Shown here piece by piece: positions 60,201-62,499 of a stretch of DNA of 64,000 nucleotides (within the stretch, counting starts at the first letter, position 1; each line of letters starts with the position of its first letter). The DNA comes from Imbricaverruca yamaguchii (lineage: Eukaryota; Arthropoda; Thecostraca; Neoverrucidae). Where the stretch lies: contig JAOTOL010001509.1 of assembly GCA_034440575.1 (NCBI GenBank), forward strand, positions 329,501 through 393,500, in the 5' to 3' direction. The position numbers were made by a program, and so were the translations under genes. Below the pieces are notes generated by a model. It worked only from the letters and a program-made list of their open reading frames with translations. It made no database searches and was not told the origin of the DNA.

Positions 60201-62499
60201 CACGCCGATTTGTCGCGGGCGAAAAGTAGCAACAGGCGGGACTCGAGCCAACAACCTTTCGATTGTGAGGTGGACAACTTACCCCCAGACTACTCGTCCC
60301 CACCGGTCAACGGGAATATTCTCCAGGGTACCCACCCATCTCATCACACCTGTCTCACTCTCCGGGATATGAGGCTCACCTCTCCAGAAAACCCGCCTCA
60401 CTGTCCACATGTGGTGATGATGCATTGGAGTTTATGGACGCGTCGACTGCCAATGTCCATAAGTCTATCCATGAGTCGCGTCCATCCAGGACATAAGGTT
60501 CACCTCTCCAGGCTGCCCGTCCCACATCTCGCGAACATCCATCCCATCTCTCCACAGGGGCACATGCCTACACATTAATAGCGTTCCCCTCCCCAGGACC
60601 CACGTCCCACCACCGCCGAACACACCGCCCCACCTCTCGAGGATGCGCGGCATGCTGCTGGAGCGCTCCTCCTTCTCGGGCCGACTGGGGCGGCGTAGGT
60701 GCCGACTGCGGCCCGACATGTAGCCCTCGTCCGAGCTACGCCAGCGCCTCTGGCGGCTGCCGTCGCCGCCCAGCCGACGCGCCGACTCCGGCGTCGGTCT
60801 GGGTCTCGGGTCGTGCTCGATCGTCAGCTGCGGCGTCAGGGCGAGGGGACGGAGGGTCATTCGACCCGAGATCCCACACGCCGGGTCAGTCGACAGCGGA
60901 CCAGGACGCTACGGGGTCACTAAACACTGGATGATGGCGTTACCGGGTCAACAGACCAGACCGGACAGACCAGACAGGCAATATGGCATGCACCGCCCTG
61001 GCACGTCAGGCCATCAAGTAAACAAAACACAACCATAGCCTAATGCCATCAATTTTAAACACACAAACCCCATTCGTGTCTCAAAAGAATGTATAACACG
61101 ATCACCATTAACCAAACAACCAATCGTACTCCACGAATGTCGCACCATATCCCACCTTCATTATATCTACCCTACACCATCAGGTGCAGTTCGTTAGAAT
61201 ATAGAATATCTGCAAGCATAGCAGTTAGCCCGATATAATGCTGTGCGTCACTAACACTTAGCAGCCTACCAGAACACCATGCTGTTTACCAGTGTACCAT
61301 TGTAACACTTCACCCGGGCAGTATGCTGTTACCATTGCAACACTTAACCTGGGCAGTATGCTGTTTACCATTGTAACACTTCATCTGGACAACATGTTGT
61401 TACCATCGTAACAATTCACCCGGGCAGTTTGCTGTTTACCATTATAGCACTTCACCCGAGCAGTTTGCTGTTTACCATTATAACATTTCACTTAGACAGT
61501 AGGCTGCTTACCATTGACACTTCACCCGGGCGGTATGCTGCTTACCATTGTAACACCTCACCCGGGCAGTATGCTGCTTACCATCGTGACGCTTCACCCC
61601 GACACTTGGCTGTTTTCCAGCACTGCAGTTGAGCGGTGTGTAACGCTGCCTGTGGCGGCAGCACCAGCTGCTCACCTGGACATGCCTGTGGCGGCCGCAC
61701 CAGCTGCTCACCTGGACATGCCTGTGGCGGCCGCACCAGCTGCTCACCTGGACATGCCTGTGGCGACCGCACCAGCTGCTCACCTGGACATGCCTGTGGC
61801 GGCCGCACCAGCTGCTCACCTGGACATGCCTGGGACAGCTGCTCACCTGGACATGCCTGTGGCGGCCGCACCAGCTGCTCACCTGGACATGCCTGTGGCG
61901 GCAGCACCAGCTGCTCACCTGGACATGCCTGTGGCGGCCGCACCAGCTGCTCACCTGGACATGCCTGTGGCCGCACCAGCTGCCACCTGGCAGCCGCACC
62001 AGCTGCTCACCTGGACATGCCTGTGGCGGCAGCACCAGCTGCTCACCTGGACATGCCTGTGGCGGCCGCACCAGCTGCTCACCTGGACATGCCTGTGGCG
62101 GCCGCACCAGCTGCTCACCTGGACATGCCTGTGGCGGCCGCACCAGCTGCTCACCTGGAAAAGCCGGGGGGGCACCAGCTGCTCACCTGGACATGCCTGT
62201 GGCGGCCGCACCAGCTGCTCACCTGGACATGCCTGTGGCGGCCGCACCAGCTGCTCACCTGGACATGCCTGTGGCGGCCGCACCAGCTGCTCACCTGGAC
62301 ATGCCTGTGGCGGCCGCACCAGCTGCTCACCTGGACATGCCTGTGGCGGCCGCACCAGCTGCTCACCTGGACATGCCTGTGGCGGTCGTTGATGAGCCGC
62401 TCGATGACAGCCAGGTTGCCGCTGGTCACCGTCTGACCGTTCACCTCCAGCACGCGGTCACCGGCGTGAAGGCAGGCAATCTCTGCGTCCAGACTCATC
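47951..62499 (-). CDS. LIMK: LIM kinase (LIMK), 3' nine exons, 5' part outside window
   Basis: LIM kinases are cytosolic kinases that phosphorylate cofilin/ADF on Ser3 and so stabilise actin filaments; they act below Rho-ROCK and Rac/Cdc42-PAK. Nine exons join in frame: 62499-62367, 60827-60634, 60108-59970, 57288-57202, 57076-56819, 56105-55993, 51879-51774, 49978-49821 and 48269-47951, giving about 500 residues. Order: PDZ end, Ser/Arg-rich linker, kinase (GTGFFGKV loop, VLK lysine, HRDLNSHN catalytic loop, DFGLA, basic RKKR before YTVVG, APE), then a Pro/Ala-rich tail. HRDLNSHN together with the PDZ exon and the basic activation-loop insert points to LIMK; the related TESK kinases have another catalytic loop and no PDZ domain. 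The LIM domains and PDZ start must lie above 62499 and are not seen in the last 1.5 kb. Several junctions are tandemly duplicated, so alternative splicing is possible. Confidence 0.95.
48285..48430. repeat. GGTCAC-rich short repeat in LIMK intron
   Basis: GGTCACACAGGTCACCACGG and CACATGGGTCACCACGAGCC type steps of 11-12 bp recur. They carry GGTCA half-sites many times. Confidence 0.75.
48519..48667 (-). mobile_element. tRNA-derived SINE in last LIMK intron
   Basis: On the minus strand the element starts with a tRNA-like head (ATCGGTAGCTCAGTGGTCAA as A box, GGGGTTCGATTCTC as B box). It is followed by GTGAGAGGCAGGCGACGCC and a CGTCGTAAAGCCACAACCC end. It is flanked by a 17-bp target-site duplication, GCATTCCGGGTCTGATG at 48502-48518 and the same with one change at 48668-48684. 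The duplication shows real retrotransposition. The head is element-borne, not a working tRNA gene. Confidence 0.9.
48725..49820. other. LIMK intron, unique sequence
   Basis: AT-rich intron sequence without repeats. No extra exon of the kinase is expected here, since phases across the intron agree. Confidence 0.6.
49821..49978 (-). CDS. LIMK: LIMK exon: kinase C-lobe
   Basis: The exon starts [20 protein letters not shown] and ends CCNTNPDL plus two bases; IGRV.ADPD.LPR is highly typical of LIMK C-lobes. The acceptor is gcggcag|GTGATT and the donor CTCAG|GTAAGG in phase 2. Four extra copies of the acceptor and about 20 nt of exon lie upstream at an 85-bp period. Confidence 0.95.
49960..50365 (-). 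repeat. 85-bp repeat of the VIGRV-exon acceptor, 5 units
   Basis: GACCAATCACC recurs at 49969, 50054, 50139, 50224 and 50309, exactly 85 bp apart. The first is the genuine exon start. The others copy the acceptor gcggcag|GTGATTGG with about 20 nt of exon followed by intron sequence. The acceptor AG survives in three of the four extra copies and is TG in the copy at 50224. Two units also hold the palindrome GTCACGTGAC. Confidence 0.93.
50370..50478 (+). mobile_element. 5'-truncated SINE at end of 85-bp array
   Basis: It begins inside the head (GGACTCGAGTCTCACCTG) and runs through TTCGCCCGCGGCCAATCGG, GTGAGAGATTGGCGATG and CGATGTGTCGTAAAACCAA. It belongs to the 6.4/60.2 kb family. It abuts the last unit of the acceptor-derived array and is in the opposite orientation to LIMK. 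Confidence 0.82.
50693..51135. repeat. 37-bp minisatellite in LIMK intron, about 12 units
   Basis: CCGGTGCGGTCACGTCAGCA and GCACCGGACCATTGTCA form a 37-bp unit. The complement of each carries GCTGACGTGAC, a CRE/UPRE-like bZIP site (TGACGTGA). The three plus-strand frames are all open. Confidence 0.95.
51165..51282. repeat. 11-bp minisatellite
   Basis: CACAGGCGGCA repeats about 10 times directly after the 37-bp array. Confidence 0.93.
51283..51773. other. LIMK intron, unique sequence
   Basis: No repeat or extra exon seen between the 11-bp array and the donor at 51773. Confidence 0.55.
51774..51879 (-). CDS. LIMK: LIMK exon: activation threonine and APE motif
   Basis: After the split Arg codon the exon reads [15 protein letters not shown], then [17 protein letters not shown]. 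The threonine of YTVVG is the equivalent of human LIMK1 Thr508, the site that ROCK and PAK phosphorylate. The acceptor is ctcttccag|GTACAC and the donor GTGAG|GTGAGT in phase 0. The acceptor region has been amplified into the 72-bp array that fills the intron just upstream. Confidence 0.96.
51867..53695 (-). repeat. 72-bp minisatellite grown from the APE-exon acceptor, about 24 units
   Basis: The unit adjoining the exon (51867-51935) includes the real acceptor and first codons. The other units align with it along their whole length, but where the exon has ctcttccag|GTACACGGTGG they read cccgctccg|GTACGCGGTGG, so the acceptor AG is gone. Units are nearly identical from 52080 to 53680. Since 72 is a multiple of three and the unit has few stops, frames of 412 and 498 codons appear on opposite strands; they are not taken as genes. 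Confidence 0.93.
53853..53935. repeat. (AT)n microsatellite in LIMK intron
   Basis: About 40 AT repeats with one G interruption near 53867. Confidence 0.98.
53936..55344. other. LIMK intron, unique AT-rich sequence
   Basis: No repeats and no recognisable exon. Confidence 0.55.
55345..55965. repeat. 39-bp minisatellite in LIMK intron
   Basis: About 15 units carry GACAGCTCTCCCCACCCGGG and CAGACATCGGACACAGCTGA. The array starts roughly 30 nt inside the intron after the DFG exon and shows no likeness to the exon. The lower-coordinate part is more regular; the part near the exon is diverged and interrupted by longer units containing CAATACACAGCTGAC. Confidence 0.9.
55993..56105 (-). CDS. LIMK: LIMK exon: DFG motif and basic activation segment
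   Basis: The exon opens at acceptor cccgccag|AACCGC with [13 protein letters not shown], so the DFG magnesium-binding motif is intact. It continues through [14 protein letters not shown] and ends in the basic stretch RRLQRKKR, equivalent to the basic activation-loop insert of vertebrate LIMKs. The donor CG|GTGAGG is in phase 2, and CG plus the next exon's G restore Arg before YTVVG. Confidence 0.95.
56106..56725. other. LIMK intron with faint repeats
   Basis: From 56500 to 56720 CTCAC, CCCAACCAC and ACCTGAGGC motifs recur loosely. CACATCTGAGGC-like pieces suggest an old repeat. No exon is expected. Confidence 0.5.
56726..56873 (-). repeat. 75-bp tandem duplication across catalytic-loop exon end
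   Basis: Two copies at a 75-bp period each hold the codons for [12 protein letters not shown], a GAG|GTGAGG donor and a little intron. The exon copy reads [13 protein letters not shown] and the intronic copy [13 protein letters not shown]. The similarity covers about 64-70 bp with a few substitutions. The frame is open through both copies. Confidence 0.92.
56819..57076 (-). CDS. LIMK: LIMK exon: kinase N-lobe end to catalytic loop
   Basis: This exon has 86 codons, from [20 protein letters not shown] to [13 protein letters not shown]. The HRD aspartate is the catalytic base, and HRDLNSHN is the LIMK signature. The acceptor (gtcggccag|GTGGCG) has a weak pyrimidine tract. The donor is GGGAG|GTGAGG at 56818. 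A second, diverged copy of the exon end and donor lies 75 bp further into the intron, with its donor at 56743, and the frame stays open between the two. Confidence 0.95.
57202..57288 (-). CDS. LIMK: LIMK exon: ATP-binding lysine and helix C
   Basis: The exon is 29 codons between acceptor gtccgcag|GTGACG and donor AAGGAG|GTAAGT, both phase 0. It reads [15 protein letters not shown], then [13 protein letters not shown]. The lysine of VMVLKEL is the expected ATP-contacting residue and the glutamate of FLKE is the likely helix-C partner. The next intron is only 125 bp. Confidence 0.95.
57340..57525 (-). mobile_element. SINE with Leu/Ser-tRNA-like head in LIMK intron
   Basis: The minus strand opens GGCGGGGATGGCCGAGTGG and then TTAAGGTGTTGGGCT, very like the A-box arm of class II (Leu/Ser) tRNAs. 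A B-box-like CTGGGTTCAACAC follows. The body runs through GTGGGCGGGGCCATTAGC to an AACAACAAACA tail. Imperfect 11-bp flanking repeats (AAAGCCAATGG at 57329, AAAGTCAATGG at 57526) fit a target-site duplication. A second copy lies at 28.1 kb. Confidence 0.88.
57526..59969. other. LIMK intron, AT-rich
   Basis: A large intron with unique AT-rich sequence, the dispersed repeat at 59071-59160 and a short direct repeat of GAGGGATGTGCATTTCTACT (58070 and 58091). Confidence 0.55.
59071..59160 (+). repeat. Dispersed repeat, copy 2, in LIMK intron
   Basis: GCTCTCCTGGAAAGGTTCGA, GTGCATCCCC and AAGTGCTCCCTTTCCG match the copy at 18.6 kb with comparable spacing. The family is unknown to me and no terminal structures are visible. 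Confidence 0.5.
59970..60108 (-). CDS. LIMK: LIMK exon: start of kinase domain with glycine-rich loop
   Basis: The acceptor ccccggcag|T completes a serine codon (AG|T). The exon encodes [15 protein letters not shown], then [35 protein letters not shown] matches the HRIFRPSDLI start of LIMK kinase domains, and GTGFFGKV is the ATP-binding glycine loop. The donor AAG|GTCAGT is in phase 0. The intron upstream is only 525 bp and carries a SINE whose 3' end lies 31 nt from this acceptor. Confidence 0.94.
60140..60301 (-). mobile_element. tRNA-derived SINE next to kinase-start exon
   Basis: The element has a tRNA-like head with GTAAGTTGTCCAC and B-box-like GGCTCGAGTCCCG. The central block is GGCGTGAGAGATTAGCGATG and the end CGATGTGTCGTAAAACCAA, with an AACC-rich tail. 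A perfect 12-bp target-site duplication, ACCGGTCAACGG, sits at 60128-60139 and 60302-60313. The element has the same orientation as LIMK, and its tail ends 31 nt before the acceptor of exon 60108-59970. Confidence 0.93.
60314..60633 (-). other. LIMK intron with donor-like echoes
   Basis: On the gene strand GGAGAG|GTGA occurs near 60503 and 60379, resembling the true donor GAGAG|GTGGGG at 60633. The surrounding CACCTCTCCAG and CCCACAT motifs recur loosely, so this may be a decayed junction repeat of roughly 125-130 bp. Confidence 0.4.
60634..60827 (-). CDS. LIMK: LIMK exon: Ser/Arg-rich linker between PDZ and kinase
   Basis: The acceptor gacgccgcag|CTGACG opens with LTIEHDP, the conserved end of the LIMK PDZ region. 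After it comes a basic, serine-rich linker ([18 protein letters not shown], then [11 protein letters not shown]). Such linkers in LIMKs hold phosphorylation and localisation signals; which of these serines are used cannot be read from the sequence. The donor is GAGAG|GTGGGG and leaves two bases (AG), matching the T that opens the next exon. Confidence 0.9.
60860..61261. other. LIMK intron, unique sequence
   Basis: Nothing recognisable between the linker exon and the 36-bp arrays. Confidence 0.5.
61262..61615. repeat. 36-bp degenerate minisatellite, about 9 units
   Basis: Units of about 36 bp built around ACCATTGTAACACTTCACCC recur next to the donor array in the same intron. On the gene strand several units contain ATG|GTAAGC, which looks like a weak splice donor. 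The sequence is unrelated to the neighbouring array despite the equal period. Confidence 0.85.
61640..62395 (-). repeat. 36-bp minisatellite made of the PDZ-exon donor junction
   Basis: Each unit carries the last 15 or so nucleotides of the PDZ exon, the donor CCAG|GTGAGC and about 20 nt of intron. Counting the genuine junction at 62367, CCAG|GTGAGC occurs 20 times, mostly 36 bp apart, plus one degraded copy near 61985. From 62367 to 62187 six donors keep one open frame, because 36 is a multiple of three; a 4-bp loss near 62160 breaks the frame. The array fills the start of the intron after the exon. Confidence 0.95.
62367..62499 (-). CDS. LIMK: LIMK exon: C-terminal half of PDZ domain
   Basis: The acceptor reads tcgccag|G and the first base completes a codon from the missing upstream exon. 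The 44 codons include [11 protein letters not shown], the classical PDZ carboxylate-side strand, followed by the helix AVIERLIND. The exon ends HRHVQ at donor CCAG|GTGAGC in phase 0, which joins to LTIEHD of the next exon just as known LIMKs read LQLTLEHD. This donor is the exon-proximal member of an array of 20 identical donors, so the exact 3' end in mRNA could vary by steps of 36 nt. Confidence 0.92.

Follow-up and report, generated by a model that had tools for sequence, protein, structure and literature searches.

What becomes of an exon whose splice donor has been copied many times over is the question raised by a 64,000-nt stretch of the genome of the barnacle Imbricaverruca yamaguchii (contig JAOTOL010001509.1, positions 329,501 to 393,500; hereafter the window, whose numbering is used throughout). 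In this window the 5' splice site at the end of a PDZ-encoding exon of a LIM-domain kinase gene (LIMK) is the first of 20 identical sites in a minisatellite. Our bioinformatic analysis suggests that the array is likely to be a near-neutral minisatellite extending over a splice junction, with splicing mostly at its first donor, and tolerated as a by-product of a repeat-rich genome.

The LIMK gene and its donor array

The gene model comprises nine exons in the window (E1 to E9) and four more upstream on the contig, which are joined in one continuous frame and encode LIM, PDZ and LIMK-type kinase domains, the LIM exons being among those upstream. The deduced protein shows 81% identity to the LIMK1-like protein of Amphibalanus amphitrite (E 3.2e-260) and 80% identity to a LIMK of Pollicipes pollicipes, and its kinase part resembles human LIMK1 (PDB 3s95, E 5e-115). 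The other 118 among the 120 matches listed reach at most 61% identity where they cover at least 80% of the model and at most 67% where they are partial. The homology to the two barnacle proteins confirms the assignment to LIMK, which the original prediction had made from the bare sequence. The same ranking places the source of the DNA among the barnacles and speaks against amphioxus, which the likeness to mirages had brought up as a possible source. A search of the 767-Mb assembly (G000, with the window at C1276:329501-393500), in which very common words were skipped, returned a single match for exon E1, with no second copy or haplotig.

The motif CAG/GTGAGC (CAGGTGAGC; the slash marks the splice junction) occurs exactly 20 times on the minus strand of the window, from 62367 downwards, and all 20 copies keep the GT within one common 9-mer. 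Tandem Repeats Finder (TRF) reports the array with a period of 36, 21.3 copies, 91% match and a score of 1226. The spacing between donors is 36 nt in 16 of the 19 intervals, the remainder being 32, 56 and 27 nt (one each). By-eye comparison resolves the 36-bp unit into the terminal 19 nt of E1 and the 17 nt with which the intron opens, so that every unit carries exon end, donor and intron start, as had been claimed together with the 20-fold repetition of CCAG/GTGAGC at the end of the PDZ exon. The unit thus holds exon and intron sequence from both sides of a junction that was placed by frame and homology, the arrangement known in amphioxus under the name of mirage. Thirteen of the 20 units match the consensus exactly, the others carry base changes or indels, and the last unit has a broken end. 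With the 5' end of U1, the array donor gives a bare-duplex energy of -11.1 kcal/mol; the eight LIMK donors tested range from -6.2 to -11.5 kcal/mol.

Assembly is difficult where units are short and almost identical, and the draft array of the amphioxus globin gene BflGb6 appeared misassembled according to PMC3087553. An artefact of this kind, affecting either the copy number or the array as a whole, is nevertheless highly improbable in LIMK: the variant units (32, 56 and 27 bp, or with base changes) are scattered along the whole array and E1 is single in the assembly, even if the exact copy number is uncertain.

Predicted consequences of the later donors for the protein

Spliced translations showed that donors 1 to 6 (last exon bases 62367, 62331, 62295, 62259, 62223 and 62187) share one open frame and join to LTIEHD at the start of exon E2, that the frame is shifted at donor 7, and that donors 8 to 20 include a stop. 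The six positions and their common frame agree with the original prediction, which also held that each later donor would add 12 residues just before LTIEHD. The gain of 12 residues stands for donors 2 to 6, but it cannot be extended to the array, as an in-frame product is possible for 6 of the 20 donors only and the other 14 lead to a frameshift or a stop.

Such an insert had been expected to lengthen the linker between the PDZ and kinase domains, an expectation at odds with the protein model of A. amphitrite LIMK (mean predicted local distance difference test score, pLDDT, 66.9; 80 and 82 in the two ten-residue blocks flanking the junction). In this model the E1/E2 junction lies after Q254, within the strand 253-259, which is the last strand of the PDZ domain, and the residues on the kinase side (261-340) have pLDDT values below 50. 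As modelled, an in-frame insert would fall in the PDZ domain rather than between it and the kinase. RHRHVQ stands at the end of each unit, so every insert would be followed by a rebuilt start of the last PDZ strand and would itself lie ahead of that strand.

It was suggested earlier that the gene makes a ladder of kinases. In its specific form, donors 1 to 6 would give LIMK forms with zero to five unit peptides between the second PDZ helix and the last strand, depending on allele length. The donors are identical, the frame is open across six of them and runs into E2, and the last strand could be rebuilt as just described, all of which fits a ladder, as does a second 36-bp donor-like array that follows an exon of MAGI (like OGA, a neighbour on the same contig identified by homology) and leaves the exon frame free of stops over 1.9 kb. 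The comparative evidence, however, runs the other way. The searches with LIMK, OGA and MAGI retrieved 120 proteins each, and the unit peptide is absent from all 360. Q is joined directly to LTIEHD, with no insert, in the alignment of all three informative arthropod LIMKs (A. amphitrite, Oratosquilla and Limulus); in the P. pollicipes prediction LTIEHD and the residues after it are missing, which makes it uninformative on this point. The insert would moreover enter a conserved domain, and most of the donors would yield no intact frame. We regard the ladder of protein lengths as unlikely, and the proposal as first made is unsupported.

The period of 36 bp does not speak for a ladder either. As a sequence the E1 array lies well outside what chance would produce, but arrays as such are ordinary in this DNA. 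TRF returned 93 rows for the window, and the share taken by arrays with a period of at least 10 is 27.1% in the window and 14.4% over 304 kb; of the 177 non-redundant arrays in the 304 kb, 78 have a period divisible by three. Because arrays are abundant and so many periods are multiples of three, no special cause has to be sought for a 36-bp array that lies in frame across a donor.

Tandem copies at other splice junctions

Intron positions were obtained with P0121 (A. amphitrite OGA) as the reference for OGA and P0242 (a MAGI) for MAGI; 35 introns, including 12 of LIMK, were kept, giving 70 junctions. Each junction was tested for a nearby same-strand tandem copy spanning its position. One intron without a solution (OGA pair 4) and three with weak solutions (OGA pairs 7 and 8 and MAGI pair 3) were left out; MAGI pair 3 holds the 44-copy donor-like array, and its omission therefore lowers the junction count.

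A spanning copy was found at 7 of the 70 junctions (LIMK 4/24, OGA 1/24, MAGI 2/22), namely the LIMK E1 donor, E5 donor, E7 acceptor and E8 acceptor, the OGA pair 13 donor, and the MAGI pair 2 acceptor and pair 8 donor. The E1 structure thus recurs at other junctions and in other genes of the same genome, with one of the seven cases at the score threshold. Within LIMK, the copy at E5 differs from the real exon end by three amino acids (by eye). All 24 decoys in the E7 array read CCG/GT and so are without AG, CAG/GT being present at the real junction only, and three of the four decoys in the E8 array have kept AG.

Of 420 intronic positions, 57 passed the same test (LIMK 30/144, OGA 8/144, MAGI 19/132), as did 49 of 248 intronic positions lying 40-160 nt from junctions; the figures were 7/370 for exon-interior positions and 3/619 for distant-segment comparisons. 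Enrichment of arrays at junctions was accordingly not found in the three genes (7/70 against 57/420 intronic positions), nor in LIMK alone (4/24 junctions against 127/500 intronic and 6/280 exon-interior positions). An earlier count for the window part gave 4/17 junctions, 97/400 random window positions, 105/300 random positions of the LIMK region and 10/182 exon-interior positions. Junctions match about as often as introns and more often than exon interiors. As the junction rate is like that of introns and the exon-interior rate is low, arrays appear to arise at any place, while selection protects the coding sequence. In LIMK, OGA and MAGI, arrays reach exon edges about as often as expected from the intronic background, which implies that such arrays need no function, and no special function of the E1 array needs to be invoked since junction-spanning copies recur at this background rate.

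This bears on the idea that the array exerts local control of splicing, in which U1 sites in a row would strengthen exon recognition or hold U1, as an enhancer or a sponge. It is true that 20 good U1 sites lie within 0.7 kb on the sense strand, followed by weaker ones in the next array. The same kind of array, however, also spans acceptors, where U1 plays no role, and 20 sites per transcript are few compared with cellular U1. We consider this kind of control very unlikely, and the splice-factor sponge envisaged for the LIMK intron in the original prediction is unsupported. A further speculation is that donor-spanning in-frame minisatellites (LIMK E1, 36 bp x 20; LIMK E5, 75 bp x 2; MAGI, 36 bp x 44 if the exon end is as mapped) serve as splicing dials set by allele length, in which case somatic or inherited copy-number changes would alter the proteins made; this, too, is quite unlikely in our judgement.

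Several observations on OGA and MAGI were made alongside the survey. At an OGA donor (L017:6609, corresponding to G000:C1276:450109, plus strand) there are three tandem copies, in which the decoy donors read GTCAGG (altered) and GCTAGC (destroyed). An OGA intron (L017:8443-9549, plus strand) contains a long open reading frame resembling, by eye, part of a mobile-element replication protein. One MAGI exon (L020:5312-7116, minus strand; G000:C1276, 480616 down to about 478812) has an array of 28-bp units at its acceptor and is then followed by the 36-bp array mentioned above, which contains 44 donor-like AG[AT]GGTAYGG sites; of these, 37 share a single register. Translation in the exon frame met no stop over 1.9 kb, and this array, which may be coding or intronic, was kept out of the junction count.

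Proposed origin and persistence of the array

We propose that the minisatellite at E1 began when a 36-bp segment lying across the donor of the LIMK PDZ exon was duplicated in tandem, and that expansion and homogenisation followed through slippage or unequal exchange, a process suggested by the large share of identical units. Donor 1 would most likely be the one used, as it alone has unique exon sequence upstream; exon definition and the reports from amphioxus point in this direction. Occasional use of donors 2 to 6 would add their residues in frame inside the PDZ domain, and use of donors 7 to 20 would give a frameshift or a stop and probably RNA decay. Near-neutrality would explain why the array persists, in a genome whose introns are, to judge from the counts, filled in large part by arrays and whose coding sequence is kept clear by selection.

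Some points weigh against this proposal. No local feature sets donor 1 apart as stronger, because all 20 donors are one 9-mer at -11.1 kcal/mol, and the intactness of these 9-mers is statistically weightless because there are few variants among the units. The match at the E7 junction, though it has 22 copies, scores only 27, the level of chance matches, and the MAGI pair 8 donor, with a score of 26, is at the threshold and may be due to chance. The sample consists of three genes on one contig, unevenly represented, and the junctions were mapped with a script of our own.

Other features of the region

The features located in the window are collected in Table 1.

Table 1. Exons of LIMK and tandem arrays at its junctions, in window coordinates.
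Feature	Position	Strand	Evidence
LIMK exon E1, C-terminal PDZ part, ends ...RHRHVQ at donor 1	62367..62499	-	acceptor GCCAG/GATGAG, donor CCAG/GTGAGC, frame continuous into E2, tblastn with Amphibalanus LIMK
36-bp tandem array across E1 donor, 20 x CAG/GTGAGC	61647..62385	-	TRF, motif positions, unit list
In-frame units, donor 1 to donor 6, 12 residues per unit if a later donor is chosen	62187..62366	-	spliced translations, all 20 donors
Second 36-bp array in the same intron, ATG/GTAAGC and decayed forms	61295..61619	-	TRF
LIMK exon E2, begins LTIEHD at 60827	60634..60827	-	frame, tblastn with Amphibalanus LIMK
LIMK exons E4-E8 and acceptor of last exon E9	48269..57288	-	frame, homology
75-bp tandem copy, end of exon E5 (HRD catalytic loop) with donor GAG/GTGAGG	56744..56818	-	25 codons, multiple of three
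72-bp array toward E7 acceptor (51879), two TRF rows joined	51916..53691	-	TRF, copy comparison
85-bp array across E8 acceptor (49978)	49959..50370	-	TRF, copy comparison

Kinship between the second 36-bp array of this intron and the E1 array was considered but found no support: the two have only GGTRAGCAGC in common, and 113 of 2000 shuffles were equally good. On the other side of E1, a 60-bp array (62531-63025) stops 31 bp before the acceptor, so that E1 has arrays close on both flanks.

Among the units of the 177 arrays in the 304 kb no excess of donor motifs could be established, the numbers being too small: CAGGTRAG occurs in 2 on the minus and 0 on the plus strand, AGGTRAG in 3 and 0, and the reversed motifs in 0. 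Elsewhere in the genome, dozens of copies of CCAGGTGAGC follow one another at mostly 21-bp steps (G000:C257:26840-28155, L013). Over the whole genome this motif numbers 2177 + 2005 against 486 + 549 for its reversed form, which probably reflects real donors together with arrays.

Comparison with known systems

Coding minisatellites are in-frame tandem repeats in proteins. The LIMK array is like them in its 36-bp unit and in the open frame over the first units; unlike them, it has a good donor in every unit, its frame is closed after unit 6, and the retrieved relatives are without the repeat. It can also be compared with the model of Rogers, cited in PMC3087553, in which introns are gained by tandem duplication of AG/GT proto-splice sites. 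The starting event would be the same, but the barnacle copies lie beside an existing intron and no new intron is seen.

The mirages of amphioxus, a name for which PMC3087553 cites Canestro and others (2002), are minisatellites across exon-intron boundaries. PMC3087553 describes them in the globin genes BflGb6 and BflGb9 and reports that splicing is undisturbed, and PMC3902484 adds PGBD5, Adh and TnC as amphioxus cases. The barnacle arrays resemble mirages in having tandem units with an exon edge and a splice signal, on the donor or the acceptor side and in several genes; mirage units range from 10-72 bp (Adh3) to about 160 bp, and AG/GT is kept in many copies. They differ in occurring in a barnacle and not a cephalochordate, in the 20 identical donors at LIMK and in the 44 donor-like copies after the MAGI exon. 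The amphioxus cases are backed by reverse transcription-polymerase chain reaction (RT-PCR) and allele-length data, whereas the barnacle array is known from genome sequence alone. A limited literature search returned no report of junction minisatellites in barnacles or other crustaceans. Judged by its sequence structure, the LIMK array is another member of the mirage class, in another phylum; the class is a structural one, and no shared descent is claimed. Junction-spanning minisatellites are thereby extended from amphioxus to an arthropod, and with its 20 identical competing 5' splice sites the LIMK array is a natural construct on which the choice of the spliceosome among equal donors can be tested.

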